Made by a program: the position numbers and the translations under genes. Shown here piece by piece: positions 5,977-58,413 of a stretch of 64,000 nucleotides of DNA; positions within the stretch are counted from its first letter, which is position 1; each line of letters starts with the position of its first letter. The DNA lies in assembly GCA_022641735.1 (NCBI GenBank), contig JALCDQ010000009.1, forward strand, positions 1 through 64,000, in the 5' to 3' direction. The notes beneath the pieces are model-generated. The model did no database searches and was not told where the DNA came from. It was given only the letters and a program-made list of their open reading frames with translations. The stretch is from Prevotella sp. (lineage in GTDB: Bacteria; Bacteroidota; Bacteroidia; Bacteroidales; Bacteroidaceae).

Positions 5977-6061
5977 ATAGACAACGGTCTTTTACGCTGT
6001 AAACAATGGCTTTTTACCGTGTAAATAACGGTTGTTTACAAGGTAAATAACCGTCTTTTAC
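5977..6061. repeat. 22-nt-period palindromic repeat array A (4 units; a possible degenerate fifth to ~6083)
   Basis: Units ATAGACAACGGTCTTTTAC-gct-GTAAACAATGGCTTTTTAC-cgt-GTAAATAACGGTTGTTTAC-aag-GTAAATAACCGTCTTTTAC. Confidence 0.85.
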
Positions 6062-6124
6062 ATTCCACCTGATTATTGGTACTAAAATGATAGCTATTTA
6101 AGAGGAATATTGCCGAAGGCTTAT

Positions 6125-6907
6125 TCACTTCTTGTGGGCTTTCTGCTCTTCCTCCAACTCCATCTCTTTCACCTTGCGGAAGAGGTCAGAAGCAAACACT
6201 AAGTCGTTGAGTCTCTTGTTAGTAGCGCCCATCACTTGGTCTTTATTTCCCTGCCATTCCTTGTGACCTTTATAGATAAAGGCGATGTTTTCACCTATTC
6301 CCATCACCGAATTCATGTCGTGCGTATTGATGATGGTGGTGATGTTGAACTCTTTTGTTATGCTTGAGAGAAGCTCATCGATGACAAGAGAGGTCTTAGG
6401 GTCCAATCCCGAGTTGGGCTCATCACAGAAAAGATACTTCGGATTGAGCACGATTGCCCTCGCAATGGCCACTCGCTTCTGCATACCTCCCGATATTTCA
6501 TCCGGGAATTTGTTCTCCGCATCCAGCAGATTCACGCGGTCGAGACACTCCTGAGCTCTCTTTACGCGCTCATTATAATTAAAAGAGGAGAACATATCGA
6601 GCGGAAATTGCACGTTATCCCTTACAGATAGGGAGTCGAAGAGCGCTGAGCCTTGAAAAACCATGCCCATTTCCCGTCGCATCATTACCTTCTCATGCTT
6701 GCTCATCGTCACGAAATTGCGCCCGTCATAAAGCACTTCTCCCTCCGTAGGTTTCAGTAATCCCACGAGGTTTTTCATCAAAACAGTCTTGCCGGAGCCG
6801 CTTTGTCCGATGATAAGATTGGTTTTTCCGGTCTCAAAAGTCGTACTGATGTCGAAGAGTACGGTCTTATCTTCAAACGCTTTCGTTAAATGTTTTACTT
6901 CTATCAT
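6125..6907 (-). CDS. ABC transporter ATP-binding protein, MlaF-like
   Basis: Walker A 'GQSGSGKTVLMKNL', signature 'EISGGMQKRVAIARAI', adjacent MlaE-like permease. Confidence 0.9.
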   Translation of the reverse strand: MIEVKHLTKAFEDKTVLFDISTTFETGKTNLIIGQSGSGKTVLMKNLVGLLKPTEGEVLYDGRNFVTMSKHEKVMMRREMGMVFQGSALFDSLSVRDNVQFPLDMFSSFNYNERVKRAQECLDRVNLLDAENKFPDEISGGMQKRVAIARAIVLNPKYLFCDEPNSGLDPKTSLVIDELLSSITKEFNITTIINTHDMNSVMGIGENIAFIYKGHKEWQGNKDQVMGATNKRLNDLVFASDLFRKVKEMELEEEQKAHKK

Positions 6908-6909
6908 AG

Positions 6910-7668
6910 CTATGAGAGCAATTGAGTGAGGAACACGTCAGAGAAAAGAATAAGCACCGAGCTGCACACAACAGCATCTGTAGAGGCTTTGCCCACTTCT
7001 ACAGACCCCCCTTCCACGGTGTAACCGAAGAAACTGGAGACGCTGGAAATGATATGGGCAAAGAAGATGCTCTTGATGATACTCATCCACATAAACCATG
7101 AGTTGAAGCAATGCTGGATGCCCATGGTAAGGTCGTCAGGGGAAATAATATGCCCTATATAGGCAGTACCATAAGCTCCGAAGATACCCATTGCCGAAGA
7201 GAATATCACAAGGAAAGGCATGATGGTCATCATGCCCAAGATTTTGGGCAATATCAGATAACTTGCCGAATTCACGCCCATGATTTCGAGGGCGTCAATC
7301 TGCTGCGTTACGCGCATCATACCCAATTCCGAGGCGATGTTGGAGCCTACTTTTCCCGATAATATCAAGCACATGATAGAACTCGAAAACTCCAAAAGCA
7401 TGATTTCACGAGTGGTATATCCAGCCACCCAATGAGGCATCCAAGGGCTTTCGATGTTCACTTTCATCTGAATGCAAATGACGGCTCCAATGAAGAAAGA
7501 AATCAAAAGGACGATGGGAATAGAGTCTACTCCTAACTGTGCCATCTCTTTCACATAGCGCTTCATGAACATCCTCATCTTCTCGGGCACACTGAAAGCG
7601 CGTCCCATCAAGATGAGATATTTCCCGAAGGTCGTGAGATATTTTCTTAATAATCTGAATAACAGCAT
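6910..7668 (-). CDS. ABC transporter permease, MlaE family
   Basis: 'GMMRVTQQIDALEIMGVNSASYLILPKILG' MlaE signature; start trimmed to MLLFRLLRK because a -7-like TTACTTTTG lies just upstream. Confidence 0.9.
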   Translation of the reverse strand: MLLFRLLRKYLTTFGKYLILMGRAFSVPEKMRMFMKRYVKEMAQLGVDSIPIVLLISFFIGAVICIQMKVNIESPWMPHWVAGYTTREIMLLEFSSSIMCLILSGKVGSNIASELGMMRVTQQIDALEIMGVNSASYLILPKILGMMTIMPFLVIFSSAMGIFGAYGTAYIGHIISPDDLTMGIQHCFNSWFMWMSIIKSIFFAHIISSVSSFFGYTVEGGSVEVGKASTDAVVCSSVLILFSDVFLTQLLS

Positions 7669-7773
7669 CGCTTTTATTTCTATTTCCACTGCAAAAGTAA
7701 CCAAATTCCGCTAAAAAACTGCAATATTATCAATAGTTTTTGATTTTATAAGTGTTATTAGGGGTATTTTTAG

Positions 7774-7781
7774 TAAATTTG
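7774..7781 (+). promoter_or_regulatory. Bacteroidota -7 element (TAAATTTG) upstream of lptB
   Basis: TAAATTTG 22 nt before the 7804 ATG in a divergent intergenic region. Confidence 0.5.
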
Positions 7782-7803
7782 CACCATAATTAGATATAAA
7801 GTG

Positions 7804-8607
7804 ATGGAAGAAAGAGAAAACGAAGGAATGGTGCTTCGCACCGAAGGGTTGGTAAAGCGTTATGGAAAAAGAACGGTTGCCAATGGTGTCACGATTAACG
7901 TGAAGCAAGGTGAAATCGTGGGTTTGCTCGGTCCTAATGGTGCCGGGAAGACCACTTCTTTCTATATGACCACGGGGCTGATAGTGCCTAATGAGGGTCA
8001 TGTCTATTTGAATGACGAGGAAATAACTGATTATCCTGTGTATAAAAGAGCACGTGCAGGCATCGGATATCTGCCTCAGGAGGCCAGTGTTTTCCGCAAG
8101 TTGAGCGTGGAAGACAATATCATGGCAGTGCTTGAGATGACGAGTCTTTCCCACGAAGAACAACTCCAGCATCTGGAGGCACTGATACAAGAATTCCGCT
8201 TGGCTAAAGTGCGTAAGAATAAAGGTGACCAGCTGTCAGGAGGTGAGCGTCGACGCACCGAGATTGCGCGTTGTTTGGCCATCGACCCTAAGTTCATTAT
8301 GCTCGATGAACCCTTCGCAGGAGTAGACCCTATTGCCGTCGAAGACATCCAACACATCGTTTGGCGACTGAAATATCGCAATATCGGAATCCTCATAACT
8401 GACCATAATGTGCAGGAAACACTATCCATCACCGACCGTGCCTATTTGCTTTTTGAGGGTAAGATACTTTTCCAAGGGCAGCCTGAAGAGCTGGCTTCCA
8501 ACCCGATTGTGAGAAAGAATTATCTTAGCGAGAACTTTGTCCTTCGCCGTTTCAAGCCTAATGAAGAGGATGAGTTGGCAGAAGAGGAAGAGAAAAATAA
8601 AGCCTAA
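7804..8607 (+). CDS. lptB: LPS export ABC transporter ATP-binding protein
   Basis: [29 protein letters not shown], '[16 protein letters not shown]' typical of LptB. Confidence 0.93.
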
Positions 8608-8687
8608 AAGAAATGGAAGGCAAAGCCTGATATGGTAAAAAATACAAATTTCTTTCTCTTATATTAGGTTTTGTGCTCAAAAATGAG

Positions 8688-8695
8688 TAACTTTG
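8688..8695 (+). promoter_or_regulatory. Bacteroidota -7 element (TAACTTTG) upstream of tig
   Basis: TAACTTTG, about 46 nt before the tig start. Confidence 0.55.
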
Positions 8696-8741
8696 CGGTC
8701 CGATTCAGAAATAACAATAAATAATATAACAAATTTCAGAG

Positions 8742-10097
8742 ATGAATATTTCATTTGAAAACCCTGACAAAATCAATGGTCTGCTGACCATAACAGTAGA
8801 GGAGTCTGATTATAAGGACAATGTCGAGAAGACATTGAAGGATTATCAGAAAAAGGCAAACGTACCGGGTTTCCGTCCGGGTATGGTTCCTATGGGACTT
8901 ATCAAACGTCAGTTTGGTACTTCAGTAAAGATGGAAGCTGTCAATAAGTTCATTGGCGAGCAGATTTACAAATATGTGCAAGATAACAAAATTCCAATGT
9001 TGGGCGACCCATTACCATCTGATAAGCAGGAGCCTGTAGATTTGGAGAAAGGTACAACTTATACATTCAAGTTCGACATAGCTGTCGCTCCTGAATTCAA
9101 GTGCGAGTTGTCAGGTCATGATAAGGTTGATTATTACAACATTACAGTAGATGATGCCCTGATTGACCAACAGATTAATATGTTCGCTTCACAGGCAGGA
9201 AAATATGAAAAGGCCGAGAATTATCAGGAGAATGACTCTCTGAAAGGCGACCTCCGTGAATTGGATGAGAATGGAAATACAAAGGAAGGCGGTCTTACAG
9301 TAGAGGGTGCTATCTTGATGCCATCTTATATTAAGGTGGAAGACCAGAAGAAGCTCTTTGAAAATGTCAAGTTGGGTGATATCATCACATTTAACCCACG
9401 TAAGGCATACCCCGATAATGACGCAGAAGTGTCTTCTTTGCTGAAGATAGAGCGTGAACAGGTGGCTGAACACATAGGCGATTTCAGTTTCCAACTTACT
9501 GAAATCAATCATTTCCAGAAGCATGAGGTTAATCAAGAACTGTTTGATACCGTTTATGGAAAAGATGCCGTAAAAGATGAGAAGGGTTTCCGCGAGAAGA
9601 TAGCAGAAGGTCTGAAGGCTCAATTGGCTACAGATAGCGACTTCCGCTTTATCCAGGATGTCCGCGCTCATTGTGAAAAGAAAGTCGGAAAAGTGGAATT
9701 CCCAGATGCTCTCTTGAAGAGAATCATGCTTGCCAACAATAAGGATAAGGACCAGGAGTTCGTTGATAAGAACTATGATAATAGCATTAAGGAGCTCACA
9801 TGGCATCTTATTAAGGAGCAATTAGTGGCTGCCAACAATGTGAAGATTGAGGATGCAGATGTGAAGGATGCAGCCAAGGAAGCCGCTCGTGCACAATTTG
9901 CTCAATATGGCATGAATAATGTGCCGGAAGAATACATCGAGCACTATGCTGATGATATGCTCAAGAAGCAGGAAAGTGTACAGCCAATGGTTGACCGCGC
10001 CATCGACCGCAAGCTCACAGAAATCCTTAAGGGTGTCGTGAAATTGAACCCTAAAGAGGTGTCTCTGGATGAATTTAATAAGATGATGAGCGAATAA
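8742..10097 (+). CDS. tig: Trigger factor
   Basis: N-terminal 'VPGFRPGMVPMGLIKRQFG' trigger-factor signature; followed by clpP-clpX. Confidence 0.93.
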   Translation: MNISFENPDKINGLLTITVEESDYKDNVEKTLKDYQKKANVPGFRPGMVPMGLIKRQFGTSVKMEAVNKFIGEQIYKYVQDNKIPMLGDPLPSDKQEPVDLEKGTTYTFKFDIAVAPEFKCELSGHDKVDYYNITVDDALIDQQINMFASQAGKYEKAENYQENDSLKGDLRELDENGNTKEGGLTVEGAILMPSYIKVEDQKKLFENVKLGDIITFNPRKAYPDNDAEVSSLLKIEREQVAEHIGDFSFQLTEINHFQKHEVNQELFDTVYGKDAVKDEKGFREKIAEGLKAQLATDSDFRFIQDVRAHCEKKVGKVEFPDALLKRIMLANNKDKDQEFVDKNYDNSIKELTWHLIKEQLVAANNVKIEDADVKDAAKEAARAQFAQYGMNNVPEEYIEHYADDMLKKQESVQPMVDRAIDRKLTEILKGVVKLNPKEVSLDEFNKMMSE

Positions 10098-10154
10098 TAA
10101 CGTTTTTTACGAAAAAAAACTTCTTTTTTATAAGGGGTTATCGACTTTTTTTAT

Positions 10155-10162
10155 TATCTTTG
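10155..10162 (+). promoter_or_regulatory. Bacteroidota -7 element (TATCTTTG) upstream of clpP
   Basis: TATCTTTG consensus in the tig-clpP gap. Confidence 0.5.
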
Positions 10163-10233
10163 TTCCTACAACAAGATAGAAAAGGTGGATAACCTCTCTT
10201 TTTGTGTATTACGAACGTATAGAAAGGAATAAT

Positions 10234-10902
10234 ATGAATAGTGATTTTAGAAAATTTGCAACCAAACATTTGGGCATGAATGGTATGACTCTTGATGATG
10301 TGGTAAAAAATCAAGCTCAGTATCTGAACCCTTATATATTGGAGGAGCGTCAGTTAAATGTCACGCAGATGGATGTTTTTTCCCGTCTGATGATGGACCG
10401 TATCATATTTTTAGGAACAGAAATAGACGATTATACAGCAAACACCTTGCAGGCTCAACTGCTTTATCTCGATTCAGTGGACCCAGGTAAAGATGTTTCT
10501 ATCTATATCAACAGCCCGGGCGGAAGCGTCACTGCAGGATTGGGAATTTATGATACCATGCAGTTTATCTCAAGCGATATTGCTACAATCTGCACTGGTA
10601 TGGCAGCTTCTATGGCAGCAGTATTACTCGTTGCGGGAGCTGAAGGCAAACGCTCTGCACTTACTCACAGTCGGGTAATGATACATCAGCCTTTAGGGGG
10701 GGTGCAAGGTCAGGCTTCAGATATCGAAATAGAGGCTAAGGAAATCCAGAAATTTAAGAAAGAATTGTATACAATCATATCCAACCATTCTCATACACCA
10801 TTTGAAAAAGTTTGGCAGGATAGTGACCGTAACTATTGGATGACAGCTGAAGAGGCTAAAGAGTATGGCATGATAGATCAGGTTCTAATTCGTAAGAAGT
10901 AA
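10234..10902 (+). CDS. clpP: ATP-dependent Clp protease proteolytic subunit
   Basis: '[22 protein letters not shown]', '[11 protein letters not shown]', '[10 protein letters not shown]'. Confidence 0.97.
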
Positions 10903-12149
10903 TGCAAAAAAAGAAAATTTGCAGTTTCTGCGGGAAAGATGAAACTCAAGTCAAGCTGATGATCAGTGGCTTGAATGGATTTATATGCGAAGATTGCGTG
11001 CAGCAGGCATATATGATCTTGCAGGAAACGGGTATTCTTACGGCTCCATCTGGCAAAAACAAGCAAGGCGAGAAACCTTTTGCCTTAAAAAAAGTGCCTA
11101 AACCGAAGGAAATCAAGGACTATCTCGACCAATATGTGATTGGGCAAGATGAGGCCAAACGTTACCTGTCGGTATCTGTATACAACCACTACAAGCGTCT
11201 GCAACAGCCAAAAGATGACAATGGAGTAGAGATTGAGAAGAGCAATATTATTATGGTGGGAAGCACGGGAACGGGGAAGACCCTCCTTGCAAGAACCATT
11301 GCCAAGATGCTCGATGTGCCTTTCACCATTGTTGATGCGACTGTTTTCACTGAGGCTGGGTATGTAGGAGAAGATGTGGAAAGCATTCTTTCTCGCTTGC
11401 TCCAAGTGGCTGATTTTGACGTAAAAGCTGCTGAAAGGGGTATTGTGTTTATTGATGAAATCGACAAGATAGCCCGTAAGAGTGACAACCCAAGCATCAC
11501 TCGTGATGTAAGTGGTGAAGGAGTGCAACAAGGATTGCTGAAACTGCTGGAAGGAACAATGGTGAATGTGCCTCCTCAGGGTGGTCGTAAGCATCCTGAT
11601 CAAGAATATATCCATGTAGATACCAGCAATATTCTCTTCATTTGTGGAGGTGCATTTGACGGAATAGAGAATAAGATTGCGCAGCGTTTGAATACACATG
11701 TTGTGGGATATAATTCCGTGCAGAATGTGGCTAAGATAGATAAGAACGACTTAATGAAATACGTTGTTCCGCAAGACTTGAAGTCATTTGGTCTTATTCC
11801 TGAGATTATCGGCCGATTGCCAGTGCTCACTTATTTGAATCCACTTGATCGGGAAGCCCTTCGCAGGATACTGATTGAACCTAAGAATTCTATTATCAGA
11901 CAATATAAAAAATTGTTTGAACTTGATGGTGTAACGTTGGATTTCACAGAAGAAACTCTCGACTTTATAGTCGATAAGGCTCTTGAATATAAATTGGGTG
12001 CCCGTGGATTACGCTCTATCGTAGAGTCTGTGATGATGGATGCCATGTTTGAAATACCTTCTAAGCGCACTAAGACGTTTGATGTGACTCTTGATTATGC
12101 AAAGAAACAGCTTGATAAAGCTCATTTGCAGAAGCTGGAGTCAGCCTAA
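10902..12149 (+). CDS. clpX: ATP-dependent Clp protease ATP-binding subunit ClpX
   Basis: N-terminal zinc-binding '[17 protein letters not shown]', AAA+ '[15 protein letters not shown]', '[11 protein letters not shown]'. Confidence 0.98.
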
Positions 12150-12155
12150 ACCTAA

Positions 12156-12202
12156 AGGATATAACTGTCAGAAGGGGGATAAATCCCTTCAGACAGTATC
12201 CT
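12156..12202 (+). terminator. Stem-loop after clpX
   Basis: AGGATATAACTGTCAGAAGGG...TCCCTTCAGACAGTATCCT. Confidence 0.6.
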
Positions 12203-12242
12203 ATAACCATTTAATATAGTAGAAAAGGACCTGCTTATTAAT

Positions 12243-14420
12243 ATGACAAAAGAAGTTAATCTTACCGCGAAACTAAAACATTATTTCGGCTTTGACACTT
12301 TCAAAGGCGATCAGGAAGCTATAATCAAAAATTTATTGGCTGGTAATGATGCTTTTGTGCTCATGCCAACGGGTGGAGGAAAGAGCCTTTGCTATCAGTT
12401 GCCATCCCTCATTATGGAAGGCACTGCCATTGTCGTTTCACCACTTATCGCCTTGATGAAAAATCAAGTGGATGTGATTAATGGGATGAGTGAGGATGAA
12501 GGGGTGGCTCATTATCTGAATTCATCTTTGAACAAGTCTGCTATCCAACAGGTGATGGATGATGTAAAAGCGGGGAAGACAAAACTTCTTTATGTTGCAC
12601 CGGAATCGCTGAATAAAGAGGAAAACCTGGAGTTCTTCCGTTCGTTTAAGATTTCTTTCTATGCTATTGATGAGGCTCATTGCATCTCTGAGTGGGGACA
12701 TGATTTCCGTCCTGAATATAGGAATATCCGTCCTACAATCAATAAGATATGTAATGCCCCGGTAATAGCTCTTACTGCGACAGCTACAGATAAGGTCCGC
12801 ACCGATATTAAGAAGAGTTTAGGCATTGTAGATGCCAAGGAGTTCAAAAGCTCTTTCAATCGTCCAAATCTCTATTATGAAGTTCGTCCGAAGACAAAGG
12901 ATATTGATAAGCAGATTATCATGTTTATTAAGCAGCATCCGAATAGGAGCGGCATTATCTATTGTCTTTCGCGTAAAAAGGTGGAAGAACTTGCAGAGAT
13001 CCTGAAAGCCAATGATATAAAGGCAGCTCCTTATCATGCTGGCCTTGACAGTGTCACTCGTTCTCAGACTCAGGATGATTTCCTGATGGAGACCATAGAT
13101 GTGATTGTTGCCACGATTGCTTTTGGCATGGGAATAGACAAACCTGATGTTCGTTTTGTAATACATTATGACATCCCTAAGAGTTTGGAAGGATATTACC
13201 AAGAAACTGGTAGGGCTGGTCGAGATGGAGGAGAAGGTAATTGCATAGCTTTCTATTCAAGTAAAGACTTGAAGAAGTTAGAGAAGTTCATGGAAGGAAA
13301 GCCAGTGGCTGAACAGGATATAGGTCGTCAACTACTTCAGGAAACTGCTGCCTATGCCGAGTCATCAGTATGTAGGCGCAAAATGTTGCTTCATTATTTT
13401 GGAGAGGATTATCCAAAGGACAATTGTGGAAATTGTGATAATTGTCTGCATCCTAAGGAAAGGATAGAAGCTAAAGATCAGTTGCTTATCGTATTGGAGG
13501 CTATCAATGCGATTAAAGAGAACTTCCGTCAGGAATATGTAATAGATTTTGTTAAAGGAAGAGCAACGGATGATATTGTCTCTCACAAGCATGATGAATT
13601 AGAAGAGTTCGGATCTGGAGAGGATGAGGAAGAGAAAATATGGAATCCTGTTATCCGTCAAGCTCTCATTGCTGGTTATCTGAAGAAAGATGTAGAAAAC
13701 TATGGTCTATTGAAAATTACTGCTGCAGGGAAGCGTTTTATGAAGTCGCCTAAGTCGTTTATGATTGTGCTGGACACAGAATTCAATGACGATTATGAAG
13801 ATGAAGAGCCACAAGGTGGAACTGCAGTGCTTGATCCAGAGCTTTTTGCGATGCTGAAAGACCTTCGAAAGAAGGTTGCTAAGAAGCAGAATTTGCCGCC
13901 TTATGTCATTTTCCAGGATGTTTCGCTTGAACAAATGGCCACGATGTATCCTGTTACTTTACAGGAATTGCAGAATATTCAAGGTGTTGGTGCTGGCAAG
14001 GCTAAACGCTATGGACAGGATTTCTGCAATTTAATCAAGCAGCATTGCACAGAGAATGACATTGAACGCCCTGAAGAGTTGCGTGTTAGGACGGTAGCCA
14101 AGAAGAGCATGCTGAAGGTAAAGATTATCCAAAGTATAGATCGTCAGATAGCTTTTGACGACATTGCCAATGCTTTAGGACTTGAATTTGATGAATTGCT
14201 CGATGAGGTGGAAGCCATTGTATATAGTGGTACGAAACTGAATATTGACTATTTCTTGGAAGATGTGATGGATGATGACCGCGTGGAAGACATTTATGAA
14301 TATTTCAGAGAGAGTGAAACAGATGATATTGAAGCTGCCCTTGACGAACTCGGAAAGGATTATAGCGAGGATGAAATCCGTCTTGTACGCATCAAATTCC
14401 TATCAGAAATGGCAAATTAA
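12243..14420 (+). CDS. recQ: ATP-dependent DNA helicase RecQ
   Basis: Helicase motifs 'MPTGGGKSLCYQLP', 'DEAHCISEWGHDFRPEY', 'ETGRAGRDG', RQC zinc cluster 'CGNCDNC', HRDC-like region. Confidence 0.95.
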   Translation: MTKEVNLTAKLKHYFGFDTFKGDQEAIIKNLLAGNDAFVLMPTGGGKSLCYQLPSLIMEGTAIVVSPLIALMKNQVDVINGMSEDEGVAHYLNSSLNKSAIQQVMDDVKAGKTKLLYVAPESLNKEENLEFFRSFKISFYAIDEAHCISEWGHDFRPEYRNIRPTINKICNAPVIALTATATDKVRTDIKKSLGIVDAKEFKSSFNRPNLYYEVRPKTKDIDKQIIMFIKQHPNRSGIIYCLSRKKVEELAEILKANDIKAAPYHAGLDSVTRSQTQDDFLMETIDVIVATIAFGMGIDKPDVRFVIHYDIPKSLEGYYQETGRAGRDGGEGNCIAFYSSKDLKKLEKFMEGKPVAEQDIGRQLLQETAAYAESSVCRRKMLLHYFGEDYPKDNCGNCDNCLHPKERIEAKDQLLIVLEAINAIKENFRQEYVIDFVKGRATDDIVSHKHDELEEFGSGEDEEEKIWNPVIRQALIAGYLKKDVENYGLLKITAAGKRFMKSPKSFMIVLDTEFNDDYEDEEPQGGTAVLDPELFAMLKDLRKKVAKKQNLPPYVIFQDVSLEQMATMYPVTLQELQNIQGVGAGKAKRYGQDFCNLIKQHCTENDIERPEELRVRTVAKKSMLKVKIIQSIDRQIAFDDIANALGLEFDELLDEVEAIVYSGTKLNIDYFLEDVMDDDRVEDIYEYFRESETDDIEAALDELGKDYSEDEIRLVRIKFLSEMAN

Positions 14421-14439
14421 TCTTGAGAATTTATTGTGA

Positions 14440-14511
14440 AAAGCCTCGATATTTCTTAGTCTCTGTTTACGCAATTGCTAGCAGAAACCTTATAGGAGAT
14501 ATCGAGGCTTT
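14440..14511 (+). terminator. Long stem-loop downstream of recQ
   Basis: AAAGCCTCGATAT / ATATCGAGGCTTT, 13 bp perfect stem with ~46-nt loop. Confidence 0.55.
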
Positions 14512-14626
14512 GATAAAATGATTTGTATAATAATTTCAACTGATATTTCATAGTCACCCTGAAAAATAATGAAAAAAGTTGTTGTTTTGCTTAGTTTTTT
14601 GTTTTGTTGAACTGTATAGTTAATAG

Positions 14627-15118
14627 ATGAAGCAAAAAACAGAAATAGAAAGGCTATTCAGAAGCCATTATGAGAGGATGTACAATCTGGCCAGATGCAT
14701 TCTTTATGATGACGATGAATGCAAGGATGTAGTAAGCGATGTGTTTGCGACGCTACTCGCTGATGGCATAGTCCTTTTGCCTGAAATAGAGGAAGGCTAT
14801 CTCTTGCGAAGTGTGCGTAATCGTTGTTTGAATGTGATAGCCCACAAGAGCATCAGAACTCAAGTGGAGAACTTGCTGCTTAATGAAAAAAAGCAGATTT
14901 TTTCGGACGATGATGATGAACAACTTGACCAACTGATGCAGATTATTGATGGGCTTGAACCACCTATTCGCCAACGAATTCTACGGTTACGTTATCTCAA
15001 AGAGATGTCGTATCAGGAGATAGCAGAACGCGAAGGAGTGAGCAAAGTAACCGTCTATAATCATCTATCACAGGCAATAGACCTAATTCGTAAGCAATTT
15101 CTTGCACAGCAAGAGTAA
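14627..15118 (+). CDS. ECF-type RNA polymerase sigma-70 factor
   Basis: 'LFRSHYERMYNLARCILYDDDECKDVVSDVFATL' region 2, 'RILRLRYLKEMSYQEIAEREGVSKVTVYNHLSQAI' region 4. Confidence 0.92.
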   Translation: MKQKTEIERLFRSHYERMYNLARCILYDDDECKDVVSDVFATLLADGIVLLPEIEEGYLLRSVRNRCLNVIAHKSIRTQVENLLLNEKKQIFSDDDDEQLDQLMQIIDGLEPPIRQRILRLRYLKEMSYQEIAEREGVSKVTVYNHLSQAIDLIRKQFLAQQE

Positions 15119-15138
15119 AGTTTCAAGAACAATTTAAA

Positions 15139-15798: not shown

Positions 15799-15800
15799 TT

Positions 15801-18377: not shown

Positions 18378-18401
18378 ACGCATTTTAAACTCTCTCTTAA
18401 T

Positions 18402-18479: not shown

Positions 18480-18586
18480 ATAAAAGATGGTTATCAGACT
18501 TTGTTTTCCATAGGAAAACAGTCTGTTTCTATCGTTGAAACAGTCATTACAAACCGTTTGTAATGACCGTCCCAACGGTTTGTACA
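18480..18586. repeat. 22-nt-period palindromic repeat array B (5 units)
   Basis: ATAAAAGATGGTTATCAGA-ctt-TGTTTTCCATAGGAAAACA-gtc-TGTTTCTATCGTTGAAACA-gtc-ATTACAAACCGTTTGTAAT-gac-CGTCCCAACGGTTTGTACA. Confidence 0.85.
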
Positions 18587-28815: not shown

Positions 28816-28984
28816 TCTATTGTTTTTTAATCGATATACTATTTTGGCAATTCTCGAAATCCAATTTTCATGCTGACCTTTCTCGCTTTGCATGCTCTGC
28901 GAAACTGCCTTTTCGGTTGTTGGAAATGTTCTTTTGTATTCTTAAAGAACGTCTTTCAGCAAACCCTTTACGGCAAAGAGTTAA

Positions 28985-29069
28985 ACAATCCGGGCCACTT
29001 TGTTTGACAATCCGGTCCACTTTGTTGAACAATCCGGGCCATTTTGTCTCGTAAACAACCGTTACTTAC
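28985..29069. repeat. 22-nt-period repeat array C (4 units)
   Basis: ACAATCCGGGCCACTTTGT-ttg-ACAATCCGGTCCACTTTGT-tga-ACAATCCGGGCCATTTTGT-ctc-GTAAACAACCGTTACTTAC. Confidence 0.88.
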
Positions 29070-36678: not shown

Positions 36679-36779
36679 TCTTTTAAAAAGTGCTGTTTGC
36701 TATAAATGAATTTCCTTTTATTTTTACCTCTGAATTTCAAAAAATCTCTGTTCACAATTCCTTTCCTGCAAAGGGCTGA

Positions 36780-36864
36780 GTAAGTAATGGTTGTTTACCT
36801 CGTAAAAGATGGTTGTTTACCTATCAAATAACGGTTGTTTACCCTGTAAAAGATGGCTTTTTAA
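36780..36864. repeat. 22-nt-period palindromic repeat array E (4 units; possible extra unit at 36758-36776)
   Basis: GTAAGTAATGGTTGTTTAC-ctc-GTAAAAGATGGTTGTTTAC-cta-TCAAATAACGGTTGTTTAC-cct-GTAAAAGATGGCTTTTTAA; upstream TTCCTTTCCTGCAAAGGGC keeps register and dyad. Confidence 0.88.
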
Positions 36865-43538: not shown

Positions 43539-43711
43539 GTAAAAGATGATTGTTTACATTTGTTTTCCTATCGAAAACAGCGTGTTTCTCTATGGAAAAC
43601 AGTCTGTTTTTCTATGGAAAACAAATTGTGCCAGTCGATTGGTACTGTTCATTACAGTATCTGGTACTGACCTTCCCAACGATTGGTATTAGCCGCTCCA
43701 ATCGTTGGAAA
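43539..43711. repeat. 22-nt-period palindromic repeat array D (8 units in exact register)
   Basis: GTAAAAGATGATTGTTTAC-att-TGTTTTCCTATCGAAAACA-gcg-TGTTTCTCTATGGAAAACA-gtc-TGTTTTTCTATGGAAAACA-aat-TGTGCCAGTCGATTGGTAC-tgt-TCATTACAGTATCTGGTAC-tga-CCTTCCCAACGATTGGTAT-tag-CCGCTCCAATCGTTGGAAA. Confidence 0.9.
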
Positions 43712-45466: not shown

Positions 45467-45472
45467 TTAAAG

Positions 45473-46906: not shown

Positions 46907-46909
46907 AAA

Positions 46910-49998: not shown

Positions 49999-50282
49999 AA
50001 TATTTTGGAAGTAGACGTCCTCAAGGTTTTCATCACACGTTTCTCTATGTGGATGAGCATAAAGATAATGTCCGTAAGGTGGAAGAGCGTGCTCGCAAGG
50101 AGCTTGGAATGGATAACAGCCAAGACTCTCCTTCGGAAGGATTGCGTGGAACATTTTTTCGGGTGACACAACAGAAGAGGCAGAAACGCAATCAATTTCA
50201 ATCAATGTTCTTGATAGTGCTCTTCCCGCTTATTATTATTCTGCTATTGGTGTTTATTTGCTATATCTTGACAAGAAGTTAG
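49995..50282 (+). CDS. Small conserved C-terminally anchored membrane protein
   Basis: 95 aa, basic N-terminus, one C-terminal TM '[22 protein letters not shown]'; overlaps OstA stop and abuts mutL. Confidence 0.75.
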
Positions 50283-50286
50283 GAAG

Positions 50287-52092
50287 ATGAGTGATATAAT
50301 ACAACTTTTACCGGATTCGGTGGCTAATCAGATTGCAGCTGGAGAAGTGATTCAAAGGCCTGCAAGTGTTATCAAGGAGTTGGTGGAGAATTCTGTTGAT
50401 GCTGAGGCTCAAACGATCAATGTACTCGTAGTTGATGCAGGCAGAACATCTATACAAGTTATTGATGACGGGAAAGGTATGTCAGAAACGGATGCCCGTT
50501 TGGCTTTTGAGCGCCATGCCACTTCCAAGATTCGGAAAGCTGATGATTTGTTTGCCTTACATACAATGGGATTTCGTGGTGAGGCCTTGGCTTCCATAGC
50601 TGCAGTAGCTCAAATTGAGTTGATGACAAGGCAGGAAAGTGATGAGATAGGAACTCTTTTGTCTTTGTCGGGGTCTAAGTTTACGGGGCAAGAGCCTTGT
50701 TCTTGCTCTGTAGGGAGCAACTTCAAGGTAGAAAATTTGTTTTTTAATGTCCCGGCAAGGAGAAAGTTCTTGAAATCAAATTCTACAGAACTCAATAATA
50801 TTCTCACCGCTTTTGAGCGTATTGTATTGGTCTATCCTCATATAGCCTTTACCCTGCACAGCAATGATGCAGAGCTTTTCAACCTGAAAGCAGGGGGATT
50901 GCGTCAACGGATTATCGATGTTTTCGGCAAGAAGTTAAATCAAGATTTGATGCCGATAGAGGTAGATACCACGATGTGCAAGATAAAGGGCTTTGTCGGA
51001 AAGCCAGAGTCTTCCAGAAAGAAAGGTGCTCATCAATATTTCTTTGTCAATGGGAGATATATGAAACATCCTTATTTCAATAAAGCCGTGATGTCTTCCT
51101 TCGAGCGATTGGTTCCATCAGGTGAGCAGGTGCCTTATTTCATTTATTTTGAAGTAGCACCTGAAGACATTGATGTTAATATTCATCCGACGAAAACTGA
51201 GATAAAATTTGAAAACGAACAGGCTATCTGGCAGATCCTTTCAGCTGCCGTTAAAGAAGCAATAGGCGTATTCAATGAGGTTCCATCCATAGACTTTGAT
51301 GTGCAGGGGAAGCCTGATATACCAGTTTATAACCCTAACGTCACATCGGCATCAGCTCCTAAAGTGAGCGTGAATCCTCAATATAATCCATTCAAGGAAT
51401 CTGCTGTCGCTATCCCGAAAGCCCCTACGAGATGGGAAGACCTCTATAAAGGACTGAAGACGGGGAATGATAAAAATGCAGAAATCTTTGAATCCGAGCC
51501 TGTCTCCAATCATAATATTATAGAAGAGAAATCTCCTACACATTATCAATATAAAGGGAAATATATCATGACGGCTGTAAAATCAGGCCTGATGATAATC
51601 GACCAGCATCGTGCACATGTGAGAATTCTTTATGAAAAATATCTTAATTTGCAAAAGAATCATAAAGGACAATCACAGAAGTTGCTGTTCCCCGAGATAC
51701 TCTATTTGAATCCATCGGGCATGGTACAATTAGAGAAAGCAATGTCAGAGTTAGAGTCTTTAGGCTTTGAATTGACGGATATGGGAAGGAATTCTTATGC
51801 CATTAATGGCGTTCCTGCAGGAATAGACGGGCTCGATAATGTGACTTTGGTAAATGAGATTCTTGCAGATACGGCCGAAAAGGGGACTTCCTCAAAAGAA
51901 GAAATGGATAGGACGATGGCACTCAGTTTGGCACGTCGTGCAGCAATACCGCAAGGGCAAGTCCTCACAAATGAGGAAATGGAAAACATTGTAAATGAAT
52001 TATTCGCTTGTGAGAATGTCAATTATACTCCAGATGGGAAGAATATTCTGTGTATTTTAAAACAGCAAGAAATAGAACATTTGTTGGGTTAA
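50287..52092 (+). CDS. mutL: DNA mismatch repair endonuclease MutL
   Basis: '[35 protein letters not shown]', '[16 protein letters not shown]', MutL C-terminal domain. Confidence 0.97.
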
Positions 52093-52106
52093 GTCCTGAA
52101 AATGAC

Positions 52107-52147
52107 AATATTAGGACCCATTTTGTGCCCAATATTTGTTTTTTTTA
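52107..52147 (+). terminator. Terminator-like stem-loop after mutL
   Basis: AATATTAGGACCCATTTTGTGCCCAATATT followed by TGTTTTTTTT. Confidence 0.55.
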
Positions 52148-52199
52148 ATTTATTTTGATATTTTCTCAAAAAAAAGTGATTATATTTGAAATTTATTAT

Positions 52200-52207
52200 T
52201 ATCTTTG
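52200..52207 (+). promoter_or_regulatory. Bacteroidota -7 element (TATCTTTG) upstream of the ompA-family gene
   Basis: TATCTTTG ~68 nt before the ATG; long 5' UTR implied. Confidence 0.5.
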
Positions 52208-52274
52208 CCATCGAATATGTGTTAGAAGCATTTCCTTAAAGGATTATTTTTTTGATAGTTTAATATAAAAAGTT

Positions 52275-53417
52275 ATGAAAAAATTATTGATTGTATTGGC
52301 ATTTGCCAGTGTATCTATGTGCTCAATGGCACAAGATGCCGATCCTACACTGAAGTATAGTGTAGCAACCAATTCGTTTTGGAGCAACTGGTTTATCCAG
52401 GTAGGCGGACAGTGGAACGCTTGGTATTCAGGCCAGGAGCATGGTCAGAATCTTGCAACAAGTCCATTCAAGAGCTTCCGTTCAAACCCAGGTGCTGCAA
52501 TTGCTATTGGTAAGTGGTTTACTCCAGGTCTTGGACTTCGTACGAAACTCCAGGGTATTTGGGGCAAGCGTGTATGGAACAATGGTGATGGTCCTGCTGA
52601 CGCTAGTAACAGATATTGGTTCTTGAATGAGCATATTCTGTTCAATGTTAGCAACATGCTTTGTGGTTACAACGAGAACCGTGTTTGGAATTTCATTCCA
52701 TTCGTAGGTGGTGGTATTGGCCGTTCTATGACTATTAACCAGTACGGAATGGATCTGAGTGCAGGTATCTTGAACGAATTCAGAGTAAGCCGTCACGTAG
52801 CAATCAACCTTGAATTGGGTTGGATTCGCTCTGAAGGTGATGTTGATGGATACGATCAGGTTGCTGGCGATCGCGGTTGGGTTTCTCATGACAACAACCT
52901 CTATGCTGAACTTGGTTTGACCTTCAACCTTGGCAAGGCTACTTGGAACAAGGTTCCTGATGTAGACGCTATCAAGGCTCTTTCTCAGTCTCAGATTGAT
53001 GCACTTAACGCACAGCTCAATGATGCAAATGCAGAGAACGCTCGTTTGAAGAATCTGCTTGCTAATCAGAAGCCAGCTGAAACCGTTAAGGAATTCGTTG
53101 CTACTCCTGTATCTGTATTCTTTAACCTCGACAAGACCAACATCGCTTCTCAGAAGGATTTGATCAACGTTCAGGCTATTGCTAAATACGCTAAGGAAAA
53201 CAACACTAAGTTGAACGTTAACGGTTATGCCGACAGCGCTACAGGTAAAGCTGATCACAACCAGTGGTTGTCAGAGCAGCGTGCTGCTACAGTTGCTGAC
53301 GAACTCGTTAAGATGGGTGTAAGCCGTGACAACATTACTACTAAGGGTAATGGTGGCGTTGACGAGCTTTCTCCAATTTCATTCAACCGTCGTGCTACTG
53401 TAACTGTTGCTGAATAA
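52275..53417 (+). CDS. OmpA family outer-membrane protein
   Basis: Signal peptide, N-terminal beta-barrel, C-terminal OmpA domain 'VNGYADSATGKADHNQWLSEQRAATVADELVKMGV...'. Confidence 0.93.
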   Translation: MKKLLIVLAFASVSMCSMAQDADPTLKYSVATNSFWSNWFIQVGGQWNAWYSGQEHGQNLATSPFKSFRSNPGAAIAIGKWFTPGLGLRTKLQGIWGKRVWNNGDGPADASNRYWFLNEHILFNVSNMLCGYNENRVWNFIPFVGGGIGRSMTINQYGMDLSAGILNEFRVSRHVAINLELGWIRSEGDVDGYDQVAGDRGWVSHDNNLYAELGLTFNLGKATWNKVPDVDAIKALSQSQIDALNAQLNDANAENARLKNLLANQKPAETVKEFVATPVSVFFNLDKTNIASQKDLINVQAIAKYAKENNTKLNVNGYADSATGKADHNQWLSEQRAATVADELVKMGVSRDNITTKGNGGVDELSPISFNRRATVTVAE

Positions 53418-53440
53418 TTTATTTTAGCAATAAGATATTT

Positions 53441-53476
53441 AAGGGATGTTCCAATAGGAGCATCCCTTATTTTTTG
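53441..53476 (+). terminator. Rho-independent terminator after the ompA-family gene
   Basis: AAGGGATGTTCC-AATA-GGAGCATCCCTT followed by ATTTTTTG. Confidence 0.85.
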
Positions 53477-53582
53477 TAGAAAGTTATCTTTTACCTTGCA
53501 AAAAGCCATCTTTTAAGGGATAAAAGGTTATCTTTTACAAGGTAAGTAATGGTCTTTTACAATTCTGAAAACAGCTTTCTTT
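53476..53582. repeat. 22-nt-period palindromic repeat array F (4-5 units)
   Basis: GTAGAAAGTTATCTTTTAC-ctt-GCAAAAAGCCATCTTTTAA-ggg-ATAAAAGGTTATCTTTTAC-aag-GTAAGTAATGGTCTTTTAC-aat-TCTGAAAACAGCTTTCTTT. Confidence 0.85.
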
Positions 53583-53654
53583 CGGATTGAAGGGCACAAA
53601 GATAGCCAATTGACACCAATTCTTTCTTAAAATATGTAAAAAGAATGAGAAATG

Positions 53655-53686
53655 TTTGGCCGTTTCGAATAATCTCTTTATCTTTG
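53655..53686 (+). promoter_or_regulatory. Bacteroidota promoter (-33 TTTG, 20-nt spacer, -7 TATCTTTG) of tRNA-Val
   Basis: TTTG at 53655-53658 and TATCTTTG at 53679-53686, canonical spacing. Confidence 0.8.
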
Positions 53687-53710
53687 CACTCGCTTTTCAG
53701 ATGAAGCCTC

Positions 53711-53788
53711 GGGCGTTTAGCTCAGCTGGTTTAGAGCATCTGCCTTACAAGCAGAGGGTCGGCGGTTCGAATCCGTCAACGCCCACCA
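53711..53788 (+). tRNA. tRNA-Val (anticodon TAC), CCA encoded
   Basis: GGGCGTT acceptor pairs with AACGCCC; anticodon loop CTTACAA in TCTGC/GCAGA stem; T-loop GGTTCGAATCC; 3' ACCA. Confidence 0.96.
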
Positions 53789-53909
53789 AAGAGTCCTGCA
53801 AAATGAAAATTTTGTGGGACTTGTTGCTTTTAACAAATCTTTTGGCAAAAATATAGTGTAGATATCAATTTAAATTATTAATTTTGTAGCTTGAATAATA
53901 TAAGAAAAG

Positions 53910-55256
53910 ATGAAACTGGATAATTTAACCGCTATTTCGCCTATTGATGGCAGGTACAGAAGTAAGACAGAGCCTTTAGCTGAATATTTTTCAGAATATG
54001 CACTTATCAGATTTCGCGTACGTGTTGAGATTGAATATTTCATCACTTTATGCGAACTCCCTTTGCCGCAGCTGGCTACTTTCGACAAGCAGCTTTTCAC
54101 GTCATTGAGAGACATCTTTCTCAATTTTGACGAGCAGGATGCCCAGCGTGTCAAGGATATCGAGAAGACTACCAATCATGATGTGAAGGCTGTTGAATAT
54201 TTCATCAAAGAACAATTCGATAAAATAGGAGGTTTAGAGGCTTACAAGGAGTTTATCCATTTTGGCCTTACCTCACAGGATATCAATAATACCAGTGTCC
54301 CTCTTTCTATTAAAGAGGCGCTTGCTGATGTGTATTATCCTCAAGTGGAGGAGCTCATCGCTCTGTTGCAATCGTATGCAGAGGAGTGGAAAGATGTGCC
54401 GATGCTTGCAAAGACGCATGGCCAGCCAGCTTCACCTACACGCTTAGGCAAAGAGATTATGGTGTATGTCTATAGGCTTTCAGAGCAGTTAAAATCCTTG
54501 AAGGCATGCAAGATTACCGCTAAGTTCGGTGGCGCTACGGGCAATTTCAATGCTCATCATGTAGCTTATCCCGATTATGATTGGAAGACTATAGCTGATA
54601 AGTTCGTCAGTGAGAAACTGGGACTTGAGCGTGAGCAATACACTACTCAGATTAGTAATTACGATAATTTAGGTGCTGTCTTTGATGCCATCCGTCGCAT
54701 CAATACCATTATTATAGACCTTGACCGCGACTTTTGGATGTATATTTCGATGGAATATTTCAAGCAGAAGATTAAAGCAGGCGAGGTGGGCTCGAGTGCA
54801 ATGCCTCATAAGGTGAATCCTATCGATTATGAGAACAGCGAGGGCAACCTTGGCATAGCAAATGCATTGCTTCAGTTCCTTGCACAGAAGTTGCCAGTGA
54901 GCCGTTTGCAAAGAGACCTCACGGATTCTACGGTGCTCCGCAATGTTGGAGTGCCATTGGGACATAGCATCATAGCCATTCAGAGCACTCTCAAAGGCCT
55001 TCATAAGTTGATTTTGAATGAAGAAAAGATGAGCGAAGACCTTGATAACACATGGGCAGTAGTGGCTGAAGCTATCCAGACGATTCTTCGTCGTGAAGGC
55101 TATCCACATCCTTATGAGGCTCTGAAGGCGCTTACGCGTACTAATCAGAAAATGACAGAAGAAACAATACATGAATTCATTAAACAATTGAATGTAAGTG
55201 ACAGCGTGAAAGCCGAACTGATGGCCATCACTCCGCACAATTACGTAGGGATTTAA
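53910..55256 (+). CDS. purB: Adenylosuccinate lyase
   Basis: 'AISPIDGRYRSKTEPLAEYFSEYAL', signature 'GSSAMPHKVNPIDYENSEGN'. Confidence 0.97.
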   Translation: MKLDNLTAISPIDGRYRSKTEPLAEYFSEYALIRFRVRVEIEYFITLCELPLPQLATFDKQLFTSLRDIFLNFDEQDAQRVKDIEKTTNHDVKAVEYFIKEQFDKIGGLEAYKEFIHFGLTSQDINNTSVPLSIKEALADVYYPQVEELIALLQSYAEEWKDVPMLAKTHGQPASPTRLGKEIMVYVYRLSEQLKSLKACKITAKFGGATGNFNAHHVAYPDYDWKTIADKFVSEKLGLEREQYTTQISNYDNLGAVFDAIRRINTIIIDLDRDFWMYISMEYFKQKIKAGEVGSSAMPHKVNPIDYENSEGNLGIANALLQFLAQKLPVSRLQRDLTDSTVLRNVGVPLGHSIIAIQSTLKGLHKLILNEEKMSEDLDNTWAVVAEAIQTILRREGYPHPYEALKALTRTNQKMTEETIHEFIKQLNVSDSVKAELMAITPHNYVGI

Positions 55257-55328
55257 ACACAACAATCTAAATATTTAAAAAAAATTGATTATTAACCCAG
55301 CCGTGAGGCTATTAAAGAAAAAGAACAA

Positions 55329-56825
55329 ATGGAAGATTTAGAAAACAAAACACAGGAGTCTTCTGCTGAAAAGATTGAAACTGGCCGTGAAGGCTATAAG
55401 CAGGACGAAAATTTGCAAAATGATTATCGTGGTGACGCAAGACCACAGCGCCCACGTATCCACACTCAGCGTGCATACAGCGCGGATCACAGGAATCAAA
55501 CCAATGAAGATGGCGGATTCCGCCCTGAAGGCTTTGGCGCATCTCTATCAAGCAATGGACCACAACGTCCACAGCAGGGTGGCTATCGACCACGTTACAA
55601 CAGTAATGGCGGTGGTGGTTATCAGCAACGCGGTGGTTATCAGCCACGTCAGCAACAAGGAGGTTATCGCCCTCGCTACAATAATAATGAAGAGGGAGGT
55701 TATCAGCCACGTCAGCAACAAGGAGGTTATCGTCCTCGTTACAATAATAATGATGAAGGCGGCTATCAGCCAAGAGGCGGCTATCAACAGCGTGATGGTG
55801 GTGGCTATCAGCCAAGAGGCGGCTATCAGCAGCGTGATGGTGGTGGTTATCAGCCAAGAGGCGGTTACCAGCAGCGTGACGGAGGTGGTTATCAGCAACG
55901 CGATGGAGGAGGCTATCAACCAAGAGGCGGCTATCAGCAGCGTGGTGGCTATCAGCCAAGAGGCGGTTACCAGCAACGTGGTGGATATCAGCAACGTGGC
56001 GGTTATCAGCAAGGTGGCTATCGTCAGCATACTGATGATTATGATCCAAATGCAAAATATAGCTTGAAGAAGCGCATTGAATATAAGGAAGAGAACGTTG
56101 ACCCTAATGAGCCGATACGTTTGAATAAGTATCTTGCTAATGCCGGTATCTGCTCTCGTCGTGAGGCTGATGAGTACATTCAGGCAGGAGTGGTGAAGGT
56201 AAATGGTGAAGTCGTGACGGAACTTGGTACCAAAGTGCTCCGCAGTGATGAGGTTATCTTCCACGATCAGCCGGTTTCTCTGGAGAAGAAAGTATATATA
56301 TTGCTCAATAAACCGAAGGATTATGTTACCACAAGTGACGACCCTCAGCAGCGCAAGACGGTGATGGACCTCGTGAAAGGCCTTTGTCCTGAACGAATCT
56401 ATCCTGTTGGACGTCTTGACCGTAATACAACGGGTGTTCTGTTGCTTACGAATGATGGCGACCTTGCCAGCAAACTCACGCATCCTAAGTTCTTGAAGAA
56501 GAAAGTTTATCATGTATATCTTGACAAGAACGTGACTGACCACGACCTTCAGCAGATTGCCAGCGGCGTTGAACTCGAAGATGGAGAGGTACATGCAGAT
56601 TCCATCGACTACCCTGATCCTCGTGATAAGAGTCAGATTGGCATTGAAATCCATAGCGGGAAGAACCGCATTGTACGCCGTATTTTTGAGAGTCTTGGCT
56701 ATCGCGTAGTGAAACTTGACCGCGTGCAGTTTGCCGGACTCACAAAGAAGAACCTTCGTCGTGGTGATGCTCGTTATCTCACAGAGAAGGAAGTGGAAAT
56801 GCTTCGTATGGGAGCTTTTGAATAA
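55329..56825 (+). CDS. RluB/RsuA-family pseudouridine synthase with [10 protein letters not shown]-repeat N-terminal extension
   Basis: S4 domain '[31 protein letters not shown]', '[22 protein letters not shown]', '[17 protein letters not shown]'; N-terminal half is low-complexity Gly/Tyr/Gln/Arg. Confidence 0.93.
55578..56031 (+). repeat. Coding tandem repeat encoding GGYQPRG / GGYQQRDG motifs
   Basis: Near-identical GGCTATCAGCCAAGAGGCGGCTATCAGCAGCGTGATGGTGGT-type units repeated in frame. Confidence 0.92.
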
Positions 56826-56846
56826 AAATCAATTAATAGGAAAAAG

Positions 56847-58241
56847 ATGAAAAGAACTAAAGTTGTTGATGCGCTTAAACGCACTGACTTTGGAAAAGAT
56901 ATCAATGTAAAAGGATGGGTACGTACCCATCGTAGCAGCAAGGCCGTCGACTTCATTGCGCTCAATGATGGCTCGACTATTAAGAATATTCAAATCGTTG
57001 TTGACCCTACCAAGTTTGATGCTGACAAGCTCAGAAGCATTACTACTGGAGCTTGCATCGGTGTCGCAGGTACTCTTGTGGAAAGCCAAGGAGCTGGGCA
57101 GTCGGTAGAAATCCAGGGCTCTGAAATCGAGATTTACGGTCTTTGCCCTAGTGATTATCCGATGCAGAAGAAGGGCCAGAGCTTCGAATATATGCGTCAG
57201 TATGCCCACGTGCGTCTGCGTACGAACACCTTCGGAGCAGTGATGCGCATCCGCCACAATATGGCCATGGCCATCCATACCTATTTCCATGAGCATGGAT
57301 TCTTCTATTTCCACACGCCACTCATCACTGCCAGTGATGCTGAAGGTGCTGGAGATATGTTTCAAGTGACCACGTTGGATTTGAACAATCCGAAGAGAAC
57401 TGAGGATGGAAAAATCGACTATAGCGAGGACTTCTTTGGCAAACACACCTCTCTGACAGTATCCGGGCAACTCGAAGGAGAGCTTGGCGCTACCGCACTC
57501 GGTCAGATTTACACTTTCGGACCTACCTTCCGTGCTGAAAACAGCAATACTCCACGCCATTTGGCAGAGTTTTGGATGATTGAGCCGGAGGTTGCTTTCC
57601 TTGAGATGAACGACCTTATGGACCTTGAGGAAGACTTCATCAGATACTGTGTGAAGTGGGCTCTCGATAACTGTAAGGACGACCTTGAGTTCTTGAACAA
57701 GATGATTGATAAGGGACTTATCGAGCGTCTTCAGGGAGTCCTAAAGGAAGGATTCGTGCGTCTGCCTTATACGGAGGGCGTAAAGATTCTTGAGGAGGCT
57801 CAGAAGAACGGCAAGAAGTTTGAATTCCCGGTAAGTTGGGGAGTCGACCTTGCTAGTGAGCATGAGCGTTATCTTGTGGAGGAGCACTTCAAACGGCCGG
57901 TCATCATGACCGATTATCCGAAGGATATCAAGGCTTTCTATATGAAAATCAATGCTGACGACAAGACCGTGCAAGGCACGGATGTGCTCTTCCCGCAGAT
58001 TGGCGAAATCATTGGAGGCTCCATCCGTGAAGAGAATTATGACAAGTTGCTCGCTGAAATCAAGCGTCGCAATATCCCGATGAAAGATATGTGGTGGTAT
58101 TTGGATACCCGCAAGTATGGTTCTTGCCCTCACGGCGGTTTCGGATTAGGCTTTGAGCGTCTTATCCTCTTCGTTACGGGAATGCAGAACATCCGCGATG
58201 TCATTCCATTCCCACGTACACCGAAGAATGCTGAATTCTAA
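56847..58241 (+). CDS. asnS: Asparaginyl-tRNA synthetase
   Basis: '[21 protein letters not shown]', '[28 protein letters not shown]', 'FGLGFERLI'. Confidence 0.97.
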
Positions 58242-58262
58242 CCTAAAAATTTATTATAACCA

Positions 58263-58307
58263 ATGCCCGGCAGGAGTAGACGATACTCTTTGTCGGGCAT
58301 GTTTTTT
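58263..58307 (+). terminator. Rho-independent terminator after asnS
   Basis: ATGCCCGGCAGGAGTA-gacga-TACTCTTTGTCGGGCAT-GTTTTTT. Confidence 0.85.
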
Positions 58308-58328
58308 GTATTCTTAATCTTGCGAAAT

Positions 58329-58413
58329 GTAAGAGATAGCCTTTTACACCTCTTCTAACGGTCTTTTACAAGGTAAACAGTCATTGTTTACAGGGTAAAA
58401 AGCCGTCTTTCAG
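58329..58413. repeat. 22-nt-period palindromic repeat array G (4 units)
   Basis: GTAAGAGATAGCCTTTTAC-acc-TCTTCTAACGGTCTTTTAC-aag-GTAAACAGTCATTGTTTAC-agg-GTAAAAAGCCGTCTTTCAG. Confidence 0.83.

Follow-up and report, generated by a model that had tools for sequence, protein, structure and literature searches.

Related intergenic repeats

The described repeats closest to those analysed here, seven intergenic arrays of 19-nt imperfect palindromes in an exact 22-nt register within a 64,000-nt stretch of a Prevotella sp. genome (GCA_022641735.1, contig JALCDQ010000009.1, positions 1 to 64,000; hereafter the window), are PINSR of Prevotella intermedia, BrickBuilt of Porphyromonas gingivalis, the repetitive extragenic palindromic (REP) sequences and DNA-uptake signals. 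In the available part of its description, PINSR is a high-copy (177–184), intergenic, non-coding and lineage-specific repeat of the same genus with a comparable overall size, which strain-specific conjugative elements mostly lack; it differs in being a single sequence of 188 bp, described from four species, that has no terminal inverted repeats, and that part of the text reports no period, dyads or spacing (PMC4755523; compared by description). The arrays share its character as a high-copy, intergenic, non-coding repeat of similar size. BrickBuilt, a miniature inverted-repeat transposable element (MITE) or minisatellite, is an intergenic tandem repeat with a unit of about two helical turns, predicted stem-loops, a leader and a tail; its terminal inverted repeats measure 12 bp when intact, target duplications of 4 bp accompany it, and terminators flank 10 of its 19 cases (PMC4596501). 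Its unit is 23 nt, present in 1–23 copies at 19 loci (PMC4596501), whereas the Prevotella arrays have 22-nt units, mostly four per array, hundreds of sites and many sequence classes. Their period is exactly 22, and lag 23 is not raised in the genome holding the window (G000). As for the ends of the elements, a conserved tail was seen in P. histicola and inverted ends in Prevotella sp. tf2-5. Separately, a genome from another family of the order (G053) carries 23-nt tandem arrays (CTCACAAGTTTGTCAGTTTTTAC; L198, 8231–8298 and 9647–9736) with the period of BrickBuilt.

REP sequences, bacterial interspersed mosaic elements and REP doublets forming hairpins, which are linked to the REP-associated tyrosine transposases (RAYT), are imperfect palindromes that occur intergenically in hundreds, are species-specific and are often arrayed (PMC2817692, PMC3733652). 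The arrays are likewise high-copy extragenic palindromes (290 main-class sites; 91 of 93 G000 arrays intergenic), but they follow a strict 22-bp helical register and lack the GTAG/CGTC tag at the palindrome base, where main-class units start with GTAA or GCAA and others with TGTCC, TGTTT, ACAAT or CCAAA. Membership of the RAYT/REP system was rejected, as PF01797 (Y1_Tnp) was absent from G000 (81.5% complete), P. histicola (95%), G156 (99%) and G284 (99%) while the controls were positive; the family was present in 8 of 16 array-rich genomes. Uptake signal sequences and DNA uptake sequences resemble the arrays in species-specific spelling, high copy number and a link to gene ends, but they are short single motifs often within genes, whereas the 22-bp arrays are almost only intergenic, with 2 of 93 lying mostly in predicted coding DNA. 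The open-access literature that we searched contained no description of such Prevotella arrays.

A strict 22-nt period in intergenic DNA

G000, a 2.56-Mb draft in 33 contigs, was sampled over 858 kb (794 kb plus the window). Its intergenic DNA contained 1874, 1083 and 274 self-similar windows at lags 22, 44 and 66, respectively, compared with mostly 1–66 at other lags (the highest being 107 at lag 20 and 126 at lag 21), and the coding sample gave only 3 at lag 22. In the intergenic DNA of the 64-kb window, we counted 12 chains of three 19-nt palindromes (at least 6 of 9 pairs, exact 22-nt steps) and 132 self-similar windows at lag 22, whereas 1000 dinucleotide-preserving shuffles yielded means of 0.02 (maximum 2) and 0.21 (maximum 16), respectively. 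The main-class sequence GTAAANAAYGGYYKTTTAC, with up to 2 mismatches, accounted for the 290 sites genome-wide, against 0–3 for its reversed control. All seven arrays proposed in the initial annotation were confirmed in position and register. About 28 of the approximately 34 units that it had counted are strongly palindromic, and the others are weaker units in the same phase. Its array at 43539–43711 keeps the register throughout, with paired arms confined to the first four units. The arrays are as follows.

Array 1, 5977–6061: four 22-nt units of the GTAAA..TTTAC class, starting at 5977, 5999, 6021 and 6043; between convergent genes 5514–5909 (plus strand) and 6125–6907 (minus strand), directly after an apparent intrinsic terminator.
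Array 2, 18480–18586: strong units at 18502 (TGTTTTCCATAGGAAAACA), 18524 (TGTTTCTATCGTTGAAACA), 18546 (ATTACAAACCGTTTGTAAT) and 18568, and an additional weak in-phase unit at 18480; one register with differing palindromes; convergent genes on either side.
Array 3, 28941–29069: three ACAATCCGGKCCACTTTGT units (28985, 29007, 29029) and the common unit at 29051 (GTAAACAACCGTTACTTAC), with further in-phase palindromes at 28941 and 28963 (ACCCTTTACGGCAAAGAGT); both neighbouring genes on the minus strand.
Array 4, 36780–36864: four GTAAA..TTTAC units (36780, 36802, 36824, 36846), with TTCCTTTCCTGCAAAGGGC flanking in phase at 36758; both neighbouring genes on the minus strand.
Array 5, paired-arm part, 43539–43623: GTAAAAGATGATTGTTTAC and three TGTTTTCCTATGGAAAACA-type units; in a divergent intergenic region between BcrAD/BadFG-like (minus strand) and IMPDH (plus strand) genes.
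Array 5, continuation, 43627–43711: four units with the central dyad only (CCAAYSGTTGG / TGGTAC type), in the same register as read from the sequence.
Array 6, 53476–53582: four GTAAA..TTTAC-like units (53476–53560) followed by a fifth, weak unit at 53564; flanked by an OmpA-family gene (plus strand) and tRNA-Val 53711–53788 (plus strand), and preceded by a terminator-like hairpin.
Array 7, 58329–58413: four units (58329, 58351, 58373, 58395); between convergent genes for a class II aminoacyl-tRNA synthetase (plus strand) and a LolA-like protein (minus strand).

The flanking genes showed no functional theme, being a mix of housekeeping, transport and surface-protein genes. Two further features of the window were recorded. 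Positions 4101–4186 (plus strand) correspond to the engA cis-regulatory RNA (RF02972, 54 bits) and lie immediately upstream of the gene at 4178–5491, and a pseudouridine synthase (S4 and PseudoU_synth_2) carries at 55614–56029 a long N-terminal tandem repeat (18-, 42- and 63-bp DNA repeats), which forms a low-complexity arginine-glycine-rich extension.

Anatomy of units and arrays

Four units were found in 47 of the 93 G000 arrays, and three were detected in 37. The palindromes pair at lags 22, 11, 33 and 44, and each unit thus has two dyad axes, one in the core and one in the spacer. Arrays start and stop on whole core units, which suggests that the 19-nt core is the true module. Several subfamilies consist of three special units and one common unit. 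The subfamily TGTCCGG..CCGGACA carries a TGTCCCCAT/ATGGGGACA leader hairpin, and further subfamilies comprise CAGGCTG units after ACCCTTTGCnGCAAAGGGC, CCAAAACAAGTTGTTTTGG, TGTTTTCCTATGGAAAACA and ACAATCYGG.CC. Main-class half-sites, drawn from a small set (AGAC, AGAT, CAAC, CAAT, AGGT, AAGC and a few others), are unmatched across the dyad, AGAT being combined with AAGC 11 times versus 2.6 expected; identity at the inner positions was not above that between arrays. Since the arms do match between unit classes, the compensatory change proposed in the initial annotation is valid at the level of classes only.

Dyad symmetry exceeded a column-permutation null, which retains period and composition, in 79% of the G000 arrays and 71% of the P. 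histicola arrays. The proposal that period and architecture stay constant while the sequence changes was borne out within the genome and between species, except that the symmetry is not universal, being weak in some species across which the period recurs; the period is the more general and conserved feature. In non-coding DNA at offsets of 1–4 units outside strong arrays, a RATnATY centre occurred in 24% of the in-phase flanking units, compared with 0–7% at each of the 21 other phases. This excess has single-base phase precision, declines with distance and reaches about 4 units outward; array-free intergenic regions gave no 22-nt signal for RATnATY. These results suggest a strong core with weaker phased sites around it, approximately 8–12 units in total.

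At 11 bp per turn, 22 bp correspond to two helix turns. The spacing of AAA/TTT tracts within the unit peaked at 11 bp in G000, P. histicola, G146 and G024 and weakly in a fifth species, G156, which fits the suggestion that the arms are read on one helical face. Two variants were also observed. Another type of long 22-nt array occurs in G000 (L033, 9920–10361; L043, 17409–18033; L048, 7878–8550) and consists of many repeats in which TTGTAACnnnnTTACAA-type palindromes grade into degenerate CTAAWGACAA..cgg units. In G146 (L182, L225–L234), purine-rich tandem tracts (GGAAGGAGTAAGGAG-like) lie beside arrays, and some units have a direct instead of an inverted right half (GCAAAAGCTAAGAAAACGC).

Distribution across Prevotella

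A generic two-unit pattern matched at least 72 stretches. Among the matches listed, most were in Prevotella, including P. histicola JCM 15637 and sp. tf2-5, single ones were in Hallella multisaccharivorax and Phocaeicola coprophilus, and the few outside the group resembled chance or other repeats. Related loci were also mostly labelled Prevotella. With 2 mismatches allowed, the pattern matched 114 of 398 congeners, up to 197 times each. Outside the genus, five other genomes of the order had 1–2 matches each. The reversed control matched often in some species (e.g., G248 and G259), and the sequence sampled there contained 22-nt arrays belonging to other classes. In about half of 19 sampled congeners, picked mainly for having few or no pattern-search matches, lag 22 ranked first or nearly first. 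Intergenic lag-22 windows numbered 1209 in P. histicola and 1251 in G156, compared with no more than 144 in these two at any lag not related to 22. Overall, the 22-nt period runs genus-wide, with related or unrelated unit sequences, and hardly occurs elsewhere in the order.

The P. histicola element, comparable in size to PINSR at approximately 290 nt, contains five units together with a TTTGTAAC..GTTACAAA tail that is conserved, and is present in many copies of 73–87% identity. In sp. tf2-5 (G422, L251–L270), an element of approximately 103 bp has CTCCTATC/GATAGGAG-like inverted ends that enclose three units of 22 nt; its copies are mostly 94–99% identical to each other, as in a young family. 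P. histicola and its relative G156, probably P. melaninogenica, have a median protein identity of 87.6% over the stretch compared. Among 47 orthologous intergenic regions of the two, arrays were present in both species in 6, in one species only in 4 and 3, and in neither in 34 (Fisher p = 0.0013). Several of the sites occupied in both species carry units of unrelated sequence (GTAAAAGGTGCCC.. in P. histicola against CGTGCGGAGCGTCCGCACA in G156).

Genomic placement and spacing

Genes were called with a simple hexamer-scored open reading frame (ORF) caller rather than a standard annotator, and the context counts are approximate. Arrays favoured convergent regions: in G000, 37 arrays were counted for 54 convergent regions, 42 for 121 tandem and 12 for 67 divergent ones, and in P. 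histicola the figures were 34 for 46, 36 for 129 and 7 for 49, respectively. In tandem regions of G000, 86% of the arrays were nearer the 3′ end of the upstream gene. Arrays recur roughly every 6–10 kb, mostly just beyond gene ends.

Spacing was compared with a null in which occupancy was shuffled among regions of equal context and length class. Only 5 neighbour distances in G000 were below 5 kb, whereas 21.2 ± 3.1 were expected (0 of 5000 shuffles), and the avoidance persisted after ORF-split regions had been merged (5 pairs at 1–5 kb versus 20.2). The coefficient of variation (CV) of spacing in P. histicola was 0.50 versus 0.77; it was 0.376 versus 0.63 in the first 172 kb (0 of 2000 shuffles) and 0.535 versus 0.81 in previously unseen contigs (p = 0.0007). 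Corresponding values for G156 were 0.545 versus 0.76 (p = 0.025), and G146 had 3 pairs below 3 kb versus 7.1 expected (p = 0.01). The spacing claim is carried mainly by two species, G000 and P. histicola.

Interpretation of the arrays

We tentatively favour, at a likelihood somewhat short of even, the reading that the arrays act at the level of DNA, as helically phased sites of binding or bending by which the chromosome is organised. Each element would comprise about four strong 22-bp sites and weaker flanks in the same phase (approximately 180–260 bp overall), each site being a pair of half-sites, as a rule inverted, separated by one turn of the helix. A putative oligomeric DNA-binding protein would assemble on the four strong sites, from which it would extend to the weak ones on one face of the helix; alternatively, the 11-bp-phased A/T tracts may pin a superhelical bend. 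The position past gene ends, chiefly between convergent genes where supercoils collide, at intervals of 6–10 kb, would make the arrays topological or domain-organising sites, and the arrays of one species may change sequence jointly, through gene conversion or coevolution with the binder, but keep their period and placement. The binding protein, the bending, the topological function and the coevolution are what we infer from these patterns. A stronger version, in which a genus-wide system of quasi-regular, phase-locked arrays marks topological domain borders at converging genes through a putative fast-evolving oligomeric protein that reads a single face of the DNA, with site sequence and protein coevolving in each species, seems rather unlikely.

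Several observations weigh against an organising role. We found no binding protein for the arrays. The classes TGTCCGG.. and GGTGCGG.. are GC-rich and without A-tracts, and intrinsic bending therefore cannot account for the arrays in general. Some species have weak dyads, with symmetry above the null in 29% of the arrays in G156, 19% in G146 and 0 of 4 in G024. Avoidance was modest in G156 (12 pairs at 1–5 kb versus 13.0), as was the CV effect in G146 (p about 0.07), and convergent sites alone showed none. Many shuffle statistics were examined without multiple-test correction, the shared occupancy of orthologous regions is partly due to context preference, and the spacing could have its source in transposition immunity. 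Composite subfamilies with a fixed unit order and a terminal hairpin resemble dispersed repeat copies, as do the long homogeneous elements of P. histicola and sp. tf2-5.

The main rival of the phased platform, and a serious one, is a non-autonomous REP- or MITE-like mobile repeat with target immunity, whose copies would spread into intergenic DNA past gene ends, with one family amplified per species; this appears possible, though we would not expect it. The tandem 22-bp sites would then be transposase-binding sites, and the spacing would arise from target immunity or purifying selection. Mu and Tn7 have transposase sites of 22 bp and show immunity, which counts for such a repeat. Composite copies that agree in unit order and leader recur at different loci (five TGTCC elements and several ACCCTTTGC plus CAGGCTG elements), and the many P. 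histicola copies, the nearly identical tf2-5 copies with their inverted ends and PINSR, a dispersed 188-bp intergenic repeat in the available part of its description (PMC4755523), point the same way. On the other side, neither an empty site nor a target duplication could be demonstrated for the arrays; intergenic alignments of P. histicola and G156 were too diverged to give insertion boundaries, and few flanks matched between sp. tf2-5 and RGIG9967. The weak flanking units have a degenerate central dyad at the exact phase but no copied sequence. Y1_Tnp (RAYT/IS200) is absent from the four array-rich genomes named above, and Mu-transpos_C was not found in 16 array-rich genomes, although the positive control also gave no match; a Mu/Tn7-type transposase was accordingly set aside as a candidate with that same limit on the search. 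Close array pairs that might bound an autonomous element were few and enclosed several genes each, none transposase-like by protein starts, with no family search made. The platform and the mobile repeat are compatible, as an element that had spread may since have been co-opted.

The remaining explanations are less probable. Transcribed RNA hairpins acting as terminators, RNase barriers or mRNA stabilisers would suit the location at 3′ ends, and the mean folding z was −4.6 versus mononucleotide shuffles, as expected of any palindromic array. However, the hairpin selection proposed in the initial annotation was not upheld: G·T and A·C mismatches on the sense strand of tandem arrays were about equal (135 and 125), without wobble bias, and ordinary terminators were not depleted at array-bearing ends (37% versus 21% for convergent and 32% versus 24% for tandem ends). 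RNA would not predict the exact 22-nt phase across units, the 11-bp phasing of A-tracts or the spacing between arrays, and Rfam gave no gathering-level match at any array; we consider this explanation improbable. Neutral, functionless minisatellites, in which slippage and hairpin-templated repair produce periodic, self-correcting palindromes, are more doubtful still. Palindromes can perfect themselves by template switching, and units of one array do resemble each other, but one exact period in many species despite unrelated sequences, the usual four-unit length, the convergent bias, the spacing and the degenerate phase-locked flanks are at odds with such an origin. A role as self-recognition signals for DNA uptake is equally hard to credit: the species-specific spelling, high copy number, intergenic repetition and non-random spacing are compatible with it, and uptake sequences elsewhere are related to Rho-independent terminators in the available part of one report (PMC1852404), but known uptake sequences, as far as the accessible text describes them, each consist of one short motif that recurs many times within genes (PMC2346458), in contrast to these 22-bp arrays.

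Implications

Prevotella are abundant in the mouth, rumen and gut. The results suggest that their chromosomes carry an undescribed chromosome-organising signal, or a mobile repeat behaving like one. The persistence of period and spacing while the sequence is replaced in each species points to a physical constraint, such as helix phase or oligomer length, rather than to a motif. The arrays may also explain PINSR, and they offer a concrete handle on the intergenic organisation of Bacteroidota chromosomes and a test of selfish versus architectural palindromes.

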